Below are positions 8,801 through 34,741 of a stretch of DNA of 36,799 nt, piece by piece; the first letter of the stretch is position 1; the number at the start of each line of letters is the position of its first letter. Where the stretch lies: positions 1-36,799 of the IMG/VR virus record IMGVR_UViG_3300048691_000223; one strand, 5' to 3'. The notes beneath the pieces were generated by a model. The model made no database searches. It saw only the letters and a list, made by a program, of their open reading frames with translations, and was not told the origin of the DNA. The translations under genes were made by a program, and so were the position numbers. This stretch comes from a virus.

Positions 8801-9154
8801 CTAAAAGCCTTCAACGCTCAAGGCAATATGATGATAAAATTCGTCCTCATCTTCATACATGATTTTGATATTTGCCCCTTTAGCGTTAAAGTCTGATGCA
8901 GCCTTTTCTTTACTACTGACTGGACCTACCAATTTATAAGCGTCTTGACGACCAACCACCAAAATATCTGTTTTAGAACTAACGGCTTTGGTAACTATTG
9001 CGCCAATCTGTTTTAGTATGCGCTCTGCATCAGCCCTGTCTAATTGTACCAATGTGCCTGTAATCACTACCCGTTTTTGATAGAAAATACTGAGGGGGTC
9101 GGGATTTAATTCACTTATTGTTACATTTACTATTTTTTTTATAAATTCATCCAT
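8801..9154 (-). CDS. Stand-alone BRCT-domain protein
   Basis: 117 residues. From about residue 22 the sequence follows the bacterial BRCT pattern known from the C-terminus of NAD-dependent DNA ligase: YQKRVVITGTL, then DRADAERILKQIGAIVTKAV (an RxxAxxxIxxxGA helix), then SSKTDILVVGRQDAYKL, and a closing helix with DEDEFYHHI. BRCT domains bind DNA ends or phosphoprotein partners. There is no ligase or exonuclease domain attached. It follows its upstream minus-strand neighbour by five bases, so the two form a small operon. Role in phage biology unknown; a link to DNA ends in replication or recombination is inference. Confidence 0.8.
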   Translation of the reverse strand: MDEFIKKIVNVTISELNPDPLSIFYQKRVVITGTLVQLDRADAERILKQIGAIVTKAVSSKTDILVVGRQDAYKLVGPVSSKEKAASDFNAKGANIKIMYEDEDEFYHHIALSVEGF

Positions 9155-9500: not shown

Positions 9501-9662
9501 TTGCCCAACGACGATGCCGAGTGTGTGCCAACCAAAGCCGAATTTTTGGCAGGGCTTCAAGAATCCATTAACGAAATGAACGCCCATATTCGTGGAGAAA
9601 TCGAATTGCCGTCGTTTGAGGATATGATGAAAGAATTAGAGGAGGAGGCGGTTTACGCATGA
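9501..9662 (+). pseudogene. Antitoxin, apparently 5'-truncated
   Basis: The frame that stops at 9660-9662 (TGA, overlapping the toxin ATG by 3 bases) reads back through VPTKAEFLAGLQESINEMNA and ELPSFEDMMKELEEE, an acidic helical tail typical of small antitoxins cotranscribed with RelE/ParE toxins. The frame is open only to 9465 and has no ATG before the internal one at 9576, which would leave 28 residues. TTG at 9501 or GTG at 9525 are the only other starts. The missing N-terminal part, normally the DNA-binding or dimer part, would fall where the minus-strand gene now begins. I read this as a truncated antitoxin; use of a non-ATG start is the alternative. Confidence 0.55.
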
Positions 9663-9982
9663 GGCTGCAACCAACTCGAAAATTTATCCGCGAGACTAAG
9701 CATTTGAATAAAAAATTCCCGTCATTCAGGTCTGATTTAGCCGCAAAAATGGCAGAGGTTCTTGAAAACCCACATGAAGGCGAATCTATTGGACAAAGTT
9801 GCTACAAAGTCCGCATGGCAATCACTTCAAAAGGCAAAGGCAAAAGTGGTGGTTCACGTATTATTACTTGTGTGAAAATCGAACGAGACACCATTTATTT
9901 ACTCACTATCTATGATAAGTCAGAGCGTGAAGACATTTCAGATGACGAACTAAAACAATTACTAAAACAAATTGATGATTAA
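9659..9982 (+). CDS. RelE/ParE-superfamily toxin of a type II toxin-antitoxin pair
   Basis: 107 residues. The layout is that of RelE-fold toxins: two N-terminal helices with FIRETKHLNKKFPSFRSDL, a central strand GESIGQSCYKVRMAI, a basic turn KGKGKSGGSRIITCVKI, and a strand YLLTIYDKSEREDIS before a C-terminal helix. Members act as ribosome-dependent mRNA endonucleases or as gyrase poisons; which applies is not visible. The ATG overlaps the antitoxin stop (ATGA), the usual coupling. Because the antitoxin seems truncated and no promoter is obvious, the toxin may be poorly expressed or inactive in the cell. Confidence 0.8.
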   Translation: MRLQPTRKFIRETKHLNKKFPSFRSDLAAKMAEVLENPHEGESIGQSCYKVRMAITSKGKGKSGGSRIITCVKIERDTIYLLTIYDKSEREDISDDELKQLLKQIDD

Positions 9983-14170: not shown

Positions 14171-15397
14171 TTATAAAATACGCTTTTGATATTGCCTAAT
14201 TTCGGGTGTAATCATCGAATCATGGTAATAAATAAGTGTTATTTTCGGGTCGGAATGCCGTGCATGAAGCGACGTTTTAAAGATAGATACTGAGGGGTCA
14301 TTGGCAAAATCCGTAATACCTGTATCCTTCCAAGAATAGAAAGAAATTCCCGTCGTATCACCCAAAATACCCTCTGCTTTCAACTTATCTAAAACGGCTC
14401 TATGCCGATTATTAAACCAATTTTCAGCAACAGGTTTAATCGCATTTGGTACAAACTTATCACCAAATACCAAATAGTTTGTTGGATAAGTGATAAAATC
14501 ATCCCCATCAAGAAGATATTTTAAAGCAATAGAAGGAATAGTTAAAACAGCCGCTTTACCATTTTTAGTAATATCGGCTGATAATCGAATTGTACCTGAC
14601 TGACAATCAAAGTCCTTAAACCGAAGCCTTGCCAATTCCGAAGGGCGAATCAGCATATAATATTGAAGGACAATTGCCCTAAATAACCATTTATCATTAT
14701 CGTTACAATATTGAGCAATGTCTTTACGCTCCTTTTCGGTCAAATTTCGCCGTAATTTTGGCGACTTCTTTTTGTATTTAATATCCTTAAAAGGATTTTT
14801 ATCCGTGTATTCACGCCGTATCAATTCTCCCCAAATAATATTCATACACAGCAAATTATTATTATAAGTGGTGTTAGAATGACCTTTCATAACAATTGTA
14901 TCCATAAAAGCAATTGCCTCCCGTTTTGACATTTCAGATACCGAAAGCGTCTCAATATTTTTAGTAATCATGTACTTACTAAAACTATTGAGCATATACC
15001 TATAAGATTTTTTAGAATTTTTATTGTCGGTCTGACATTTAAGGTCAATAATAGACTGAAACGCCACTTTAAGCGGCGTTCTAAAAAGCGGATAAGGGTC
15101 AGAAGCAAATTTAATGCGTCCCCGTCCATGCTTTTTAATATCTGCAATAATCACATTCGCAGGGATACCTTTACCCAACATCTCGTTAAGATATTCGATA
15201 ATTTCATCGGCACTATTTTTACGTTCTTTTTTGGACTCAATGCGATTGATGTCAAATGTAGGGCGGTATCGTATCATTTTCTCTGATGCTCCCTGCCAAA
15301 ATTCGATATGCCATCTATCAGCTTTGATAAGTTTAGCCTCTTTGTAGGCTGTGTAGGACGCCAAAACGTTCGTTTTAGGCAAATTTTTTTTATCCAT
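14171..15397 (-). CDS. int: Tyrosine recombinase / phage integrase
   Basis: 408 residues. It would integrate and excise the phage genome at att sites. A SAM-like core-binding domain lies near residues 125-210. The catalytic domain shows IRPSELARLRFKDFD (Arg I near 247), a strand with KNGKAAVL (Lys near 279), a box II written YSWKDTG (near 352-358) where the classic form is HxLRHT, then ARHSDPKITLIYYH with the likely nucleophile Tyr near 387-388. Box II thus has S, K, D in place of H, R, H. Related substitutions (SxKHTG) are common in Bacteroidota integrases, though D at the last place is less usual to my knowledge. The gene is flanked by a long inverted repeat (15465-15536) and a putative operator (15564-15578) upstream, and a terminator downstream. 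Confidence 0.9.
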   Translation of the reverse strand: MDKKNLPKTNVLASYTAYKEAKLIKADRWHIEFWQGASEKMIRYRPTFDINRIESKKERKNSADEIIEYLNEMLGKGIPANVIIADIKKHGRGRIKFASDPYPLFRTPLKVAFQSIIDLKCQTDNKNSKKSYRYMLNSFSKYMITKNIETLSVSEMSKREAIAFMDTIVMKGHSNTTYNNNLLCMNIIWGELIRREYTDKNPFKDIKYKKKSPKLRRNLTEKERKDIAQYCNDNDKWLFRAIVLQYYMLIRPSELARLRFKDFDCQSGTIRLSADITKNGKAAVLTIPSIALKYLLDGDDFITYPTNYLVFGDKFVPNAIKPVAENWFNNRHRAVLDKLKAEGILGDTTGISFYSWKDTGITDFANDPSVSIFKTSLHARHSDPKITLIYYHDSMITPEIRQYQKRIL

Positions 15398-15995: not shown

Positions 15996-16361
15996 CTACT
16001 GTTGTTTGAGTAACTCCTTTAAAAAATTTATTTGCGCGTCTTTTTCGGCTAACAACCGCTCATACAGTGCCTTCATTTCTTCCATCGCAGCATGGCTGCC
16101 CATGCTCTGGCTAACCGATGCCCCATCGTTGCCGTTCGCTTGCTGGCTCTGGTGAACAGAAGGGTGGCGAAATTCATCTAAAAAACTTTTGTCAATTTCT
16201 AATTCCTCCGCGATTTTATCTAAGAGCGAACCATCGACAATGCTCTGCCTTCCCACGATGTAAAGATTGTTACGGGACATTTTTAGCCTTTCTGCAAAAT
16301 CTTCCATCTTAATTCCATGCTGTTTTAAAATTGGTTTTAATTTCTGTTGTAAAGTATTCAT
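15996..16361 (-). CDS. HTH transcriptional regulator, probable lysogeny repressor
   Basis: 121 residues. An XRE-like HTH covers residues 5-60 (LKPILKQHGIKMEDFAERLK, MSRNNLYIVGRQSIVDGSLL, DKIAEELEID). A flexible Q/S/G-rich linker (about 65-88) leads to a coiled coil (MEEMKALYERLLAEKDAQIN). It is transcribed away from the early genes, with the operator array in the divergent gap, the classical place for a CI-like repressor. No cleavable LexA/CI peptidase domain is present, so induction would need another route, perhaps the paralogue next to it. Which of the two binds which site cannot be told from sequence. Confidence 0.8.
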   Translation of the reverse strand: MNTLQQKLKPILKQHGIKMEDFAERLKMSRNNLYIVGRQSIVDGSLLDKIAEELEIDKSFLDEFRHPSVHQSQQANGNDGASVSQSMGSHAAMEEMKALYERLLAEKDAQINFLKELLKQQ

Positions 16362-21655: not shown

Positions 21656-21803
21656 ACGTCCTACACGTCCTACACGTCCTACAAAAAATATAAAGTATTA
21701 ATTATCAATTATTTATCCTACAATGTTGTCGTTTTTTTTGTAGAATTTGTAGGATTTATGTAGGACGTGTAGAATCTATGTAGAATTGTAGGATGTGTAG
21801 GAC
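21656..21803. repeat. Opposed iteron array, TGTAGGAC type
   Basis: Left: three end-to-end ACGTCCTAC units (21656, 21665, 21674). Right: seven TGTAGRAY units on the other strand sense, starting at 21739, 21748, 21759, 21768, 21779, 21787, 21796 (steps 9, 11, 9, 11, 8, 9). A further TCCTACA lies at 21716. The two halves face each other over a 56-bp AT-rich spacer. Confidence 0.9.
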
Positions 21804-21924
21804 GCTAAAACATATATACGCTGTAAAAAAAAATAAACGAAAAAAATAAAAATAAAAAATTGTAATTATTTGATAATCAATAAGTTAAATAAGATTCTAC
21901 GTTTTTTTTGTCTATTTTTATTTG

Positions 21925-29953: not shown

Positions 29954-29971
29954 TTAACACATTCTTTGCGT

Positions 29972-30208
29972 ATGAAAACGGTAAAAGTTTTAAAAAAAGG
30001 GGTCGTAAGTGATTTTTACGGTAAGCAATACGACCTTGAAAAAGTAACTATTTGGGACGCTGAACACTTGATTAGAGAGGGCTGCAAAGACCTTGAAATT
30101 GTAGAAAGTGAACCAAATACAGTTATAATTTCCCAAAATACTGAGGGGGTACATTATACTGAGGGGGGCAAAGTGAAAGTACCAACGATTTTAACACCTT
30201 CTAAATAA
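29972..30208 (+). CDS. Hypothetical protein whose tail is coded by two repeat copies
   Basis: 78 residues from ATG 29972 (a TTG six bases upstream is less likely). The first 50 residues look like a small alpha/beta domain (KTVKVLKKGVVSDFYGKQYD, KVTIWDAEHLIREGCKDLEI). The C-terminal part TEGVHYTEGGK comes from two TACTGAGGGG repeats 18 bp apart, at 30139 and 30157, the closest direct pair in the window. That makes the last 20 residues likely a recent addition rather than a folded part. The position just before a head-tail protein suggests a head or connector accessory, as short proteins of this kind often sit there. Confidence 0.55.
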   Translation: MKTVKVLKKGVVSDFYGKQYDLEKVTIWDAEHLIREGCKDLEIVESEPNTVIISQNTEGVHYTEGGKVKVPTILTPSK

Positions 30209-30644: not shown

Positions 30645-32087
30645 ATGAAAAAGTTTATGTTTTTCGCCCTGTTTGGGCTTTTTATCGTCGATTTGTCAGC
30701 ACAAACCCCACAACAATTGCGCGATACGATTAACTACCGTTTTCGGACACGCCCAATGGACAAATCATTTGGCACGGCTGACCTCCGTGCAGCAACATTG
30801 CCGATTGTAGATATGATTGAAGCCAATAAAATCAATGCTGATGCGACGTATGCGACTAAAAATGGATTGGCAGACAGCGTATTTGTTTTGAAATCTGCTA
30901 TGGCTTCAAAAGCAAATCAAACAGATATTGACGCTACGAATAGTACTGTGTCAGGATTAACAGCGGCTGTTTTCTCTAAGTCTTCACTTACACAACTTAG
31001 AGATTCAATGGCAAAGGTCAGTGCAGCGGGGCGAACAGGAAGTTATTTAGATTTAACGAATAAACCTGTTTTAGCTTCTGGAGGCGATAGTACGTTTCAC
31101 ATGGTAGGAACGACTAACGTAAAAAGTGGTGTAGATGCTTTGTATTATGTTACTACTGGCTTATATAATACTGCTACGGGCGCTGCTGCGCTTAACAAAA
31201 ATACAACTGGTAATAGCAATACAGCTTCGGGCTACTATTCATTGCTAAACAATACTGTAGGGTTTAACAATACAGCTTATGGATATCAATCAATGTATGC
31301 GAATTCAACAGGAAACTATAATGTTGCAACTGGTTGGAGGTCTCTTTATGGTAATTCTACAGGTGGTAATAATACGGCAACAGGTTATCAGTCCATAGCG
31401 GGTAATTCGACGGGTATGTATAATACTGCATCTGGTTATCAAGCACTTATGAGTAATTCAACGGGTTCTGATAACGTTGCTATCGGTAATCAGGCATTGT
31501 TGTATAATACAACAAGCAATTATAATACAGCCGTAGGGTCATATTCGCTTTGGAAAAATTTGGGAACTAATAATACAGCAGTAGGATTCAGTGCATTAGG
31601 AAATTGTATTGGAGGGGCGCATAATGTTGCAATTGGCTACCTGTCAGCAGCAGGCTATACAGGGGGCGCATATAACACATTTCTTGGTTCTATGTCTGCC
31701 TATTCAGTAGCGGGGATTGGTTCGTCGAATACGTATCTTGGGCATACTGCTGGAAGTTTGGGGAGTAACAATACTGCAGTTGGTAGAATGTCACTGCAAA
31801 GTGTTACAGGCTCGAACAACACCGCGATTGGTTATAGTGCAGGGCGTTATATTACGTCAGGGAACTATAATATAACAATTGGTAATGATGCGCAAGTGTT
31901 AGACCCCACATCACACAATCAACTTTCCATCATGAACAGAATCTATATCAGCGCATCAGGTGCGTTTATATATGACCTTAGTTCATTTACTTATGCTGAT
32001 GACCAAGCAGCCGACAATGACCCAAATCTACCCCAGAAAGCTTTTTATCGCTTGACGGGTTCGCGGGGTGTTTTTCAAAAACCTTAA
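30645..32087 (+). CDS. Secreted repeat adhesin / tail-fibre-like protein with signal peptide
   Basis: 480 residues. The first 20 (MKKFMFFALFGLFIVDLSAQ) are a typical Sec signal peptide with a likely cut at LSA-Q. A helical stalk follows (to about 150), then from about 170 to 420 a run of roughly 16-residue repeats of the form N-T-A-x-G-x-x-A/S-L...N-x-T-G, like the head repeats of YadA-type adhesins and of some phage fibres (examples NNTATGYQSIAGNSTG, YNTASGYQALMSNSTG). The end (about 430-480) lacks a recognised endosialidase-type chaperone. A virion fibre would not need export, so either it is sent to the host surface, or the gene was taken from a host adhesin and the signal is retained. Repeats are also visible as related but diverged DNA units. 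Confidence 0.75.
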   Translation: MKKFMFFALFGLFIVDLSAQTPQQLRDTINYRFRTRPMDKSFGTADLRAATLPIVDMIEANKINADATYATKNGLADSVFVLKSAMASKANQTDIDATNSTVSGLTAAVFSKSSLTQLRDSMAKVSAAGRTGSYLDLTNKPVLASGGDSTFHMVGTTNVKSGVDALYYVTTGLYNTATGAAALNKNTTGNSNTASGYYSLLNNTVGFNNTAYGYQSMYANSTGNYNVATGWRSLYGNSTGGNNTATGYQSIAGNSTGMYNTASGYQALMSNSTGSDNVAIGNQALLYNTTSNYNTAVGSYSLWKNLGTNNTAVGFSALGNCIGGAHNVAIGYLSAAGYTGGAYNTFLGSMSAYSVAGIGSSNTYLGHTAGSLGSNNTAVGRMSLQSVTGSNNTAIGYSAGRYITSGNYNITIGNDAQVLDPTSHNQLSIMNRIYISASGAFIYDLSSFTYADDQAADNDPNLPQKAFYRLTGSRGVFQKP

Positions 32088-32109: not shown

Positions 32110-32454
32110 ATGAAATATTTTACCTTATTCCTATTCTTAATTCTCTTTAATACGTTGCTCACTGCCCAAACATTTAATAGAGAATTCAATTGCGAGTTTG
32201 ATACTGACTGTGGTATTACTTCTGTTGACCCCCTCAGTATAGGTGATGTATTTATCTATCCAAACCCTTGTATAGATGAATTTTATATTACAACTATTGA
32301 GGCATTAGAGGTTAGTATTGTAGATATTCAAGGTAAGGTTTTGATACGTTCAAAAGACAAATGGATAAATGTTTCTGCTTTATCAAATGGGCTTTACATA
32401 GCCGTTGTTAAGATAGGCGATAAGGTATTTTATTTGAAATTTATTAAGATATAA
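32110..32454 (+). CDS. Mini-protein with signal peptide and type IX secretion sorting domain
   Basis: 114 residues from ATG 32110; the frame is open upstream but that part overlaps the fibre gene. Residues 1-20 (MKYFTLFLFLILFNTLLTAQ) are a signal peptide. A linker TFNREFNCEFDTDCG resembles the EF..EF.TG extensions at 28795 and 29837. From about residue 47 it has the T9SS C-terminal sorting pattern: VFIYPNPCIDEFYI, then VSIVDIQGKVLI, then VSALSNGLYIAVV and a closing FYLKFIKI. Such domains direct proteins through the outer membrane by type IX secretion, after which they are usually removed. Here there is almost no cargo besides the short linker. It follows the fibre gene by 22 bases and so is probably co-expressed. 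Confidence 0.8.
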   Translation: MKYFTLFLFLILFNTLLTAQTFNREFNCEFDTDCGITSVDPLSIGDVFIYPNPCIDEFYITTIEALEVSIVDIQGKVLIRSKDKWINVSALSNGLYIAVVKIGDKVFYLKFIKI

Positions 32455-32465
32455 CAACAACAAGT

Positions 32466-32531
32466 GGGCTGAATGGATATAGCGAGACTTAATAATGTAC
32501 AAAATCGTCAAAAGCTATTGAAGTTCAGCCC
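32466..32531. promoter_or_regulatory. Large stem-loop after the T9SS gene
   Basis: GGGCTGAA (32466-32473) pairs with TTCAGCCC (32524-32531), and ATAGC (32479-32483) with GCTAT (32514-32518). No T-run directly follows. It may slow or end the late transcript before the methyltransferase unit. Confidence 0.5.
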
Positions 32532-32548
32532 CATACTGCTTTTTAAAA

Positions 32549-32640
32549 CCTACAAGCCTACAAAATGCTTATTTTTTAAATTTCCTAATTATTTGATAAT
32601 CAAATAATTATAGTTTTGTAGGGCGTGTAGGTTGTGTAGT
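32549..32640. repeat. Second opposed TGTAGG iteron locus
   Basis: Left: CCTACA at 32549 and 32557. Right: TGTAGG at 32617 and 32626, TGTAGT at 32635. The spacer of 54 bp holds the palindrome ATTTGATAATCAAAT (32591-32605). A -7 type box TAGTTTTG (32611-32618) overlaps the first right-hand unit. Same layout as 21656-21803, with fewer units. Confidence 0.8.
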
Positions 32641-32673
32641 TTGCCAAATCAAGGTTTCCCAAAAATTATTTCT

Positions 32674-34038
32674 ATGCGTGATAAAAACTTTGAGATGCAA
32701 ACTGAAAAATTGCATTTCCACACTGAACAACGAAAGGTTATTGACCTTATTCCTTATGAGAAAAATCCACGTTTTCTCACACCCCAACAAGAGATTGACC
32801 TTACCGAATCCCTTTCTAAGTTTTCGCTTGCCGAAATTCCTGTTATTGATACTGACAATAAGTTAATTGCAGGGCATCAACGGGTAAAAATCTTATTAAA
32901 ATTAGGGCGTGGTGAAGATGTAATTGATGTCCGCGTACCTAATCGCAAGCTGACCCAAAAGGAGTTTGACGAATACAATATCCGAAGTAATGCTAATACT
33001 GGTTCTTGGAACGTGGAGATGCTCTCCACAGAATTTGCATTGTCAGACCTTGAAAATTGGGGTTTAGAAGCGACAAAACTAAAAGGTTTTGCAACGCCTG
33101 TAATGGTTGACGAAGAAAACGACATACCCCTCAGTGCATCAACACCATTGGTCAAACGGGGTGATATTTTCAAGTTGGGACACCATATTTTGATGTGTGG
33201 CGATGCTAAAAGTGGCAGCGATGTTACAGCATTGATGCAAGGACAATTGGCTAAAATGGTGTTTACTGACCCTCCGTATAATGTTAAAATTTCAAGTATT
33301 GGGAGTAGTTCAGTTTTCGATAAAACAATAAATAAAAACCGTAAACAAACGACAGGTATCAAGCAAATACATGGTGAATTTGTAGAAGCAAGTGGCGAAA
33401 TGTTAGAAAGTGAATTTACAGACTTTTTGAGTGTAATAATTACGAATTTAATAGAACATTCCGAAGATGGGGCGATTCACTTTATTTGCATGGACTGGCG
33501 ACATATTCAAGAACTATTGTCGGCTTCAAAAATGCCTAATTATGCGTTTAAACAATTATGCGTTTGGAACAAAGACAATGCAGGAATGGGGACTTTTTAC
33601 AGAAGTAAACATGAGTTTGTGTTTGTTTTCAAAAAGGGGCAAGGTAAGCACATCAATAATTTTGAATTGGGGCAATATGGGCGATATAGAACGAATGTTT
33701 GGGACTATCCAATTGTTACAAGTTTTTCCAATATCAATAAAGGCGAATCGAAATTACATCCAACCGTAAAACCACTTGACTTGGTAGCTGATGCTATTTT
33801 AGACTGTTCAAATCATAAAGATTTGATATTAGACCTATTTTTAGGAAGCGGCACAACGTTGATTGCTTCGGAGCGTACAGGACGTGTTTGTTATGGGATG
33901 GAATTAGACCCAAGATATGTTGAAGTGTCTATTCAACGATTTTACCATTATATGGCGCAACAAAGTCAAACGATTGATTTTGAACATCTTAACGGGTCTT
34001 TAACGCTTGAACAAATCGTTGAAAATGGATACAATTAA
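32674..34038 (+). CDS. ParB-like domain / DNA methyltransferase fusion
   Basis: 454 residues from ATG 32674; a TTG at 32632 would put the start inside the iterons. The N-terminal 100 residues have a ParB/sulfiredoxin-like pattern: VIDLIPYEKNPRFLTPQQ, then VIDTDNKLIAGHQRVKILLK (GHxR motif) and TQKEFDEYNIRSNAN. The C-terminal part is an amino-methyltransferase with motif IV FTDPPYNV (DPPY near 199) before motif I LDLFLGSGTTLIASE (near 386-400), so of the permuted beta type. DPPY suits N6-adenine or N4-cytosine transfer; target unknown. Such fusions are common next to phage terminases and may protect DNA from host restriction or mark packaging DNA. No partner endonuclease gene is nearby. Confidence 0.88.
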   Translation: MRDKNFEMQTEKLHFHTEQRKVIDLIPYEKNPRFLTPQQEIDLTESLSKFSLAEIPVIDTDNKLIAGHQRVKILLKLGRGEDVIDVRVPNRKLTQKEFDEYNIRSNANTGSWNVEMLSTEFALSDLENWGLEATKLKGFATPVMVDEENDIPLSASTPLVKRGDIFKLGHHILMCGDAKSGSDVTALMQGQLAKMVFTDPPYNVKISSIGSSSVFDKTINKNRKQTTGIKQIHGEFVEASGEMLESEFTDFLSVIITNLIEHSEDGAIHFICMDWRHIQELLSASKMPNYAFKQLCVWNKDNAGMGTFYRSKHEFVFVFKKGQGKHINNFELGQYGRYRTNVWDYPIVTSFSNINKGESKLHPTVKPLDLVADAILDCSNHKDLILDLFLGSGTTLIASERTGRVCYGMELDPRYVEVSIQRFYHYMAQQSQTIDFEHLNGSLTLEQIVENGYN

Positions 34039-34741
34039 GGCTTGGTTGACATCAGAACGGGTTTATAGTGAGGGGGTTAAATTGTATGCTCAATTTGGCA
34101 AAAATAGCCGATTATTGAGTACTTTTCTATTCAAAGAAAATGCTTTTAATGTTGAAAAATTGGTTTATGAGTTGTCCAAAATAGCTGATGCTGTTGTGCC
34201 GATTGTCGAGCAAAAACAAGTTATTAAGTTCAATAATGGAGCTAAAATCCTTCTTGAAACGCCTATAAAACCGCCGACAAGAGGTTTAAGCATTGAAAAT
34301 ATCGAAATATCTTCTTTTCCAAAAGAACTGGAAGATATGATAGTTTTAAGAGGTTATTTGACGAATAAAAAAGCCATTATTCACAATTCGATGCACAATT
34401 TGGAAGCAACGGACAATGAAGGCAGAAAAGCCAAAATGACAGAAATGATAGACATTCGGAATCAAATTATTGAGATTGACAACGCCGAATACCATTTTAA
34501 AAAGAATGGTAAAATGCCTGATGCACCGATTGTTGACGAAAAAATAAGTGACCTTGATACACCTCTACCAACTGACCCTGTTGCTTTGTTAAAATTTCAA
34601 AAATCACTTCGGGAACGCAAATCAAAAGCAATTGCCAAGATGAAACCATTTCCCGAAAAACACCCCAATAGAATCCCATTAGAGAATAAAATAGCCAAGA
34701 TTGATGCGAAACTTAAAGACATTGAAAAGCAATTTGCCTAA
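34025..34741 (+). CDS. Conserved-looking protein before small terminase, unknown function
   Basis: 238 residues from ATG 34025, which overlaps the methyltransferase end by 14 bases. The N-terminus (IKAWLTSERVYSEGVKLYAQ then FGKNSRLLSTFLFKENAFNV) follows a pattern I recall from Bacteroidota phages in the same position: a short W-L-x-S/T segment, then EGVxLY..FG.N. A basic helical coiled-coil end follows (ALLKFQKSLRERKSKAIAKM). It may help the terminase or packaging, by position only. It contains a near match of the dispersed repeat (TAGTGAGGGGG at 34065). Confidence 0.55.
   Translation: MDTIKAWLTSERVYSEGVKLYAQFGKNSRLLSTFLFKENAFNVEKLVYELSKIADAVVPIVEQKQVIKFNNGAKILLETPIKPPTRGLSIENIEISSFPKELEDMIVLRGYLTNKKAIIHNSMHNLEATDNEGRKAKMTEMIDIRNQIIEIDNAEYHFKKNGKMPDAPIVDEKISDLDTPLPTDPVALLKFQKSLRERKSKAIAKMKPFPEKHPNRIPLENKIAKIDAKLKDIEKQFA

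Follow-up and report, generated by a model that had tools for sequence, protein, structure and literature searches.

An intact phage gene joins a signal peptide to a T9SS sorting domain

The window, a 36,799-nucleotide stretch of DNA covering positions 1 to 36,799 of IMG/VR virus record IMGVR_UViG_3300048691_000223, carries an intact open reading frame at 32110-32454 (+; ATG, 114 codons, TAA) for a 114-aa type IX secretion system (T9SS) protein, hereafter the mini protein. Its first 19 residues (MKYFTLFLFLILFNTLLTA; 32110-32166, +), followed by QTF, look like a Sec signal peptide on visual inspection and under a crude hydrophobicity rule only, with a helix at residues 3-16 in the structure model; they end in TA before a glutamine, as is usual for Bacteroidota. 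A linker with two cysteines (residues 20-48; 32167-32253, +) leads to a T9SS type A sorting domain, or C-terminal domain (CTD), at residues 49-114 (32254-32451, +). Because the usual CTD lead-in (GITSVD...) lies within the linker, the real cargo amounts to only ~15 residues.

The original prediction had proposed a signal peptide, a short linker and a T9SS CTD encoded by a phage, and had called for a profile search for the sorting domain. Both the architecture and the phage setting were borne out. The product scored 43.1 bits against Pfam PF18962 (cut-off 27; E 5e-11; residues 49-111, profile positions 1-73 of 75) and 46.6 bits against NCBIfam TIGR04183 (cut-off 23; E 2.5e-12; residues 49-113, profile positions 1-71 of 72), the latter about twice the NCBI cut-off. 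With matches ending at residues 111-113 of 114, the domain reaches the C-terminus.

Structure prediction was consistent with these assignments. A first model built from two sequences was poor (mean pLDDT 57) and was superseded by one whose alignment included CTDs of other viral contigs, in which pLDDT was mostly 80-96 over residues 61-114; the linker was disordered (low confidence) in both. The best solved fold match was the T9SS translocon-bound CTD of NucA (8glk_D; E 8e-4, TM 0.73 over the target), followed by the CTDs of mirolase, FspA, RemA, RemZ and RgpB, and a sequence-profile search of solved structures likewise returned CTDs as the nearest entries, led by that of the NucA endonuclease (8glk_D). 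In P. gingivalis, CTD function is reported to require a glycine in the L-beta3-beta4 motif and a C-terminal motif with a lysine (PMC11285876); the mini protein has both, G75 in the L-beta3-beta4 motif and K110 near the C-terminus, and both are nearly invariant among its relatives. The product thus combines the sorting domain, signal peptide, Ig-like fold and motifs of T9SS type A cargo. A 120-aa protein of an uncultured marine phage (BFVD A0A8D9CC94) gave a weak fold match (E 1.5e-3), which makes it a further candidate for a phage miniprotein of this type.

The GC content of the mini gene is 30.7%, against ~37-45% in phage genes measured nearby and at other sites, which suggests a different origin rather than decay.

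A signal-peptide fibre gene lies 22 bp upstream in a probably temperate phage

Immediately upstream, on the same strand, a 480-aa fibre gene (30645-32087, +), the probable partner of the mini gene, ends in a stop codon 22 bp before it. The original prediction had described a protein with almost no cargo; this holds for the ~15 residues of the mini protein itself and overlooks the neighbouring fibre, which by the same crude rule begins with a signal peptide of its own (MKKFMFFALFGLFIVDLSA, followed by Q). Its body consists of NTAxG head-type repeats and its C-terminus is a phage-type YADD segment; a Pfam search returned no match, hence no Peptidase_S74 domain, and neither the phage records nor the fetched loci held a homologue of its N-terminus.

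Its matches to PHROG 23837 (virion structural; 1.9e-56) and PHROG 4636 (tail spike; 7.8e-31), together with its position among late genes and next to a connector-like gene, would fit an ordinary virion protein with a hydrophobic start that does not act as a signal peptide, the mini gene being an unrelated late accessory gene. We consider this unlikely, as the N-terminus, with its lysines, hydrophobic core and SAQ, is a textbook signal peptide of Bacteroidota type. Such a peptide is missing from the repeat-fibre homologues in phages related by large terminase (TerL; loci L029 and L031), whereas under the crude rule it is present in 53 of the 63 chromosomal homologues of the first genome sample described below.

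Close phages differ in the equivalent stretch: two (L007, L009) have nothing between their equivalents of a small gene at 29966-30208 and of 34007-34741, and a third (L008) has a signal-peptide fibre-like gene directly before its equivalent of 34007-34741. Downstream of the mini gene, a structured intergenic region with two long hairpins by RNA folding (32455-32676) is a possible operon end; the fold of 32455-32640 has -53.3 kcal/mol (z -5.1), a stability equalled in 0 of 200 shuffles, and the region matched no Rfam family. CCTACA/TGTAGG inverted repeats lie within 32455-32650, and similar words recur at 15342, at the start of the integrase gene, and at 21666-21811, in the 21.7-kb intergenic region; the structured segment could be a regulatory or recombination site.

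A tyrosine integrase (14171-15397) and a Cro/C1-type HTH repressor-like protein (15996-16361) indicate that the phage is probably temperate, and the TerL relatives in named genomes, which are Hymenobacter and Pontibacter prophages at 44% identity, point to a Bacteroidota bacterium as host. Elsewhere the phage encodes a RelE-type toxin (9659-9982, +), a small BRCT-domain protein (8801-9154, -) and a DNA methylase with a ParB-like N-terminal part (32677-34038, +). Two related phages encode a conserved 544-547-aa signal-peptide protein without CTD, upstream of the head genes (L011 1663-3297, L012 1398-3041), so that phage-encoded secreted proteins recur in that group.

Close relatives of the mini protein were absent from IMG/VR, as was a close sibling among 50,697 phage records, and a single-sequence search of IMG/VR with the terminase returned no close relatives. 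An alignment search for TerL relatives, of which the best 80 of 207 were kept, enlarged the comparison: the mini gene was absent from all 49 TerL relatives of the phage, and T9SS domains occurred in one of 50 TerL-related virus records, within 719- and 1429-aa frames that we attributed to host DNA or large cargo.

The window also contains a dispersed 11-mer, TACTGAGGGGG (reverse CCCCCTCAGTA; mostly ATACTGAGGGGG), in 19 copies on both strands against 0.005 expected under a second-order Markov model (3472, 4957, 5438, 5985, 8750, 8766, 9088, 10026, 16754, 19114, 21244, 22889, 24047, 24892, 26965, 30139, 30157, 32229 and 36510). The copies lie mainly within genes in varying frames, and the CCCCCTCAGTA copy at 32229 encodes part of the mini linker. 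The word was absent from TerL-related loci and not enriched in 395 Bacteroidota genomes (at most 3 per genome).

Bacteroidota chromosomes encode miniproteins of the same architecture

T9SS CTDs had been expected to belong to large proteins. This is only partly so: a profile search recovered full-length or nearly full-length members of a signal-peptide-CTD family, with frames of 103-157 aa, in ~25 of 296 sampled Bacteroidota genomes, in some as tandem copies. Most CTD proteins of one Hymenobacter and one Pontibacter genome are long, and each of these genomes has one signal-peptide-linker-CTD protein of ~118-125 aa; a well-conserved family of 109-117 aa occurs in further genomes. Eleven minis gave an alignment too divergent to be used against viral sequences, and no viral relatives of the chromosomal family were found.

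The best full-length match of the phage mini protein was a chromosomal one (L173; 33% identity over residues 1-112, E 3e-9). Architecture, length and alignability over the whole length are common to the phage protein and the chromosomal family (A11; L169, L170, L171, L173), but the neighbouring genes differ, and in place of the family signature IEGLxxYPNPVxNGKxYI...ATRKLI the phage protein has SIGDVFIYPNPCIDEFYI...YLKFIK. By these sequence features it may work like the chromosomal proteins, and we do not file it as a member because the signature is missing. In four Flavobacterium-like loci (L170, L171, L277, L278), the mini-CTD gene follows a gene for a secreted or lipoprotein beta-helix-type protein and precedes a LuxE-like gene; the beta-helix-type protein has no recognisable CTD, so that a CTD-less secreted protein again stands beside a bare CTD.

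These relatives bring in the main rival explanation, in which the mini protein stands alone and acts on the T9SS, as a decoy competing with host cargo, a PorA-like signal or a surface tag, and the adjacent fibre is coincidental. The conserved chromosomal family, the best full-length match within it and the precedents of Fjoh_0547 and PorA (PMC7712824) speak for such a protein. Against it, such a role would leave unexplained why a signal-peptide fibre gene lies only 22 bp away and why chromosomes show the strong pairing described below, and a single mini-cargo would probably compete weakly unless abundant, given that CTDs are exchangeable and cargo is abundant. On balance we regard a stand-alone role as somewhat unlikely.

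Chromosomal fibres pair with sorting-domain genes

Homologues of the phage fibre were found in 27 of the 296 Bacteroidota genomes searched, and 48 loci were fetched from genomes with such homologues as a first sample. Eight of its 63 fibre genes carried their own CTD. We defined tight neighbours as non-fibre genes on the same strand within 60 bp. Among tight downstream neighbours of fibres, 14 of 22 had a CTD, against 4 of 76 other genes within those loci (Fisher p 2e-8) and 2 of 34 other genes with a signal peptide (p 4e-6). About ten genomes contributed the 14 pairs, some of which are not independent of one another. NCBIfam models confirmed all 14 partners (12 type A, 2 type B). Several of the pairs overlap by 4 bp.

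A second sample comprised one locus from each of 40 Bacteroidota genomes outside the first. Searched downstream only with a home-made CTD HMM, it gave 0 of 9; this HMM had failed to detect type B domains and divergent type A ones, and CTD genes also lay directly upstream of the fibres. With the criterion widened after seeing the data (NCBIfam models, both sides, matched controls), 11 of 18 tight neighbours had a CTD (7 type A, 4 type B). Neither CTD family was within the 25 most frequent among the 78 control operon genes of these loci, which bounds each at 3 or fewer; the contrast of 11 of 18 with no more than 6 of 78 corresponds to a Fisher p of at most 3e-6. The CTD partner lay upstream as often as downstream. 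Because the criterion was changed post hoc, we take the second sample as support for pairing on either side of the fibre.

Peptidase_S74 is the chaperone of endosialidase. By Pfam, this domain forms the C-terminus of 18 of 24 paired fibres and 53 of 75 other fibres, and a CTD in cis occurs in 8 of these 75; where the fusions were inspected, the CTD comes after an S74-type C-terminus and a coiled coil. A CTD that is fused to the fibre in some genomes and encoded by a neighbouring gene in others is a classic sign of a functional link.

The phage locus has the same arrangement, a signal-peptide fibre gene and a signal-peptide CTD gene 22 bp apart on one strand, as in the chromosomal pairs in which a signal-peptide repeat fibre is directly followed by a signal-peptide CTD gene (L134, L154, L122, L135). 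It differs in two respects. The chromosomal partners, ~156-163 aa overall at the small end (157 aa in L134 and L154), carry an extra domain of ~50-60 aa, whereas the phage mini protein has only its 29-aa linker; and most chromosomal fibres end in a Peptidase_S74 chaperone, whereas the phage fibre ends in its YADD segment.

Longer T9SS cargo recurs among phages

A tblastn search of the phage records with a consensus CTD returned only two huge phages. Together with a third, these have 186-199-aa signal-peptide-CTD genes (L003, 5647-6207, LR756502; L006, 5605-6204, LR745206; L177, 5668-6240, IMGVR_UViG_3300049793_000366), each flanked by a DnaJ-like gene in front and a very long gene of opposite orientation behind, in records of 508-642 kb. 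Like the window phage they encode a signal peptide and a CTD in a small protein; unlike it, they carry a further ~90-aa domain and have no signal-peptide fibre alongside. Scanning IMG/VR with the bacterial partner proteins yielded 28 loci, in many of which signal-peptide-CTD genes adjoin phage genes; the complete cargo genes examined encode 236-1544 aa, none as small as the mini protein. Three viral contigs share a 646-647-aa signal-peptide T9SS cargo gene (L263 4396-6339; L265 and L272 4369-6309) directly before a gene for a small holin-like membrane protein; this cargo forms a conserved phage T9SS family.

The abundance of longer cargo genes in viral contigs, the hypervariability of such genes in Cryophage (PMC7468147) and the singleton status of the mini gene in the collections searched could suggest a longer T9SS cargo gene that lost its middle, leaving a functionless signal peptide and CTD. 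The original prediction had likewise raised a remnant of a longer gene, a suggestion that this one phage sequence does not support: the frame is unbroken, the 22-bp gap contains no cargo debris and the upstream fibre has its own terminal segment, and we therefore rejected a frame-broken longer gene. The CTD is moreover complete with both functional motifs, and proteins of similar size are conserved in chromosomes, with 186-199-aa ones in the three huge phages. We regard decay of a cargo gene as unlikely.

Discussion

We tentatively favour, at less than even confidence, a two-gene surface-fibre cassette in a temperate phage, in which the mini protein is the T9SS signal or anchor for the fibre. 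This reading draws on the complete CTD with its conserved motifs, the 22-bp spacing, the chromosomal pairing and the fusions, and further on the temperate lifestyle and on the AT-rich mini gene, which at 30.7% GC might have been acquired. It is tempered by a fibre homology that rests largely on NTAxG repeats and by the richness of many sampled genomes in CTD genes. The two differences from the chromosomal pairs, the position of partners on either side in the second sample and the absence of the mini gene from the 49 TerL relatives also count against it.

If the cassette is of the chromosomal type, the fibre and the mini protein would each reach the periplasm through their own signal peptides, and the host T9SS would recognise the mini protein through its CTD. 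The mini protein might then serve the upstream fibre in one of two ways: it could bind the fibre and lend it a T9SS signal in trans, or it could anchor or cap the fibre on the outside of the cell, so that a lysogen or infected cell would show a phage-chosen fibre; such a display would fit adhesion, receptor masking or superinfection exclusion. Co-transcription of the two genes, binding of their products, export in trans and a benefit to the phage are steps that we infer from this arrangement. Receptor masking, superinfection exclusion and a decoy for the host T9SS, as envisaged in the original prediction, are possible outcomes; exclusion or masking through a change in the host surface is plausible.

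By current description, T9SS cargo carries its sorting signal as a domain at its own C-terminus. A broader and more speculative possibility is that Bacteroidota have a two-component T9SS substrate, in which a CTD-less fibre, its C-terminus often occupied by a self-cleaving S74-type chaperone, is carried or anchored together with a small partner providing the CTD in trans, and that the phage has minimised this partner and dresses the host surface with it. Genomic comparison establishes the pairing; delivery in trans is our proposed reading of it. If a neighbour can supply the CTD, many CTD-less secreted Bacteroidota proteins would call for a second look as T9SS substrates, and a module of 60 residues could be used for surface display; the fibre-partner pairing makes trans supply of the sorting domain directly testable. 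For phage biology, the locus would be a minimal case of a phage using the host type IX system to alter the host surface.

The signal-peptide-CTD architecture is less odd than first thought, and the fibre-CTD pairing is the novel part. Small CTD proteins are known from chromosomes. Fjoh_0547 of Flavobacterium johnsoniae, a 112-aa CTD protein reported to be secreted even without SprA or PorV (PMC7712824), resembles the phage protein, as described, in its signal peptide, CTD and length of ~112 aa, and differs in being chromosomal. PorA of Porphyromonas gingivalis is likewise a small CTD protein, whose main role is T9SS regulation rather than an enzymatic one; unlike the phage protein it has a FimH-like domain before the CTD (246 aa in all), and its authors consider it restricted to Porphyromonas (PMC7712824). 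Sorting domains are also carried by some crAss-BACON phages (PMC6949934). Phage T9SS cargo itself is already published and recurs in viral contigs: Cryophage has three variable T9SS cargo genes (Bellas et al. 2020, PMC7468147), which, like the mini gene, end in T9SS type A sorting domains and are thought to use host secretion. The Cryophage cargo proteins are large enzymes or PA14 proteins, whereas the phage described here encodes a sorting domain with almost no cargo and, alongside it, a fibre with a signal peptide of its own.
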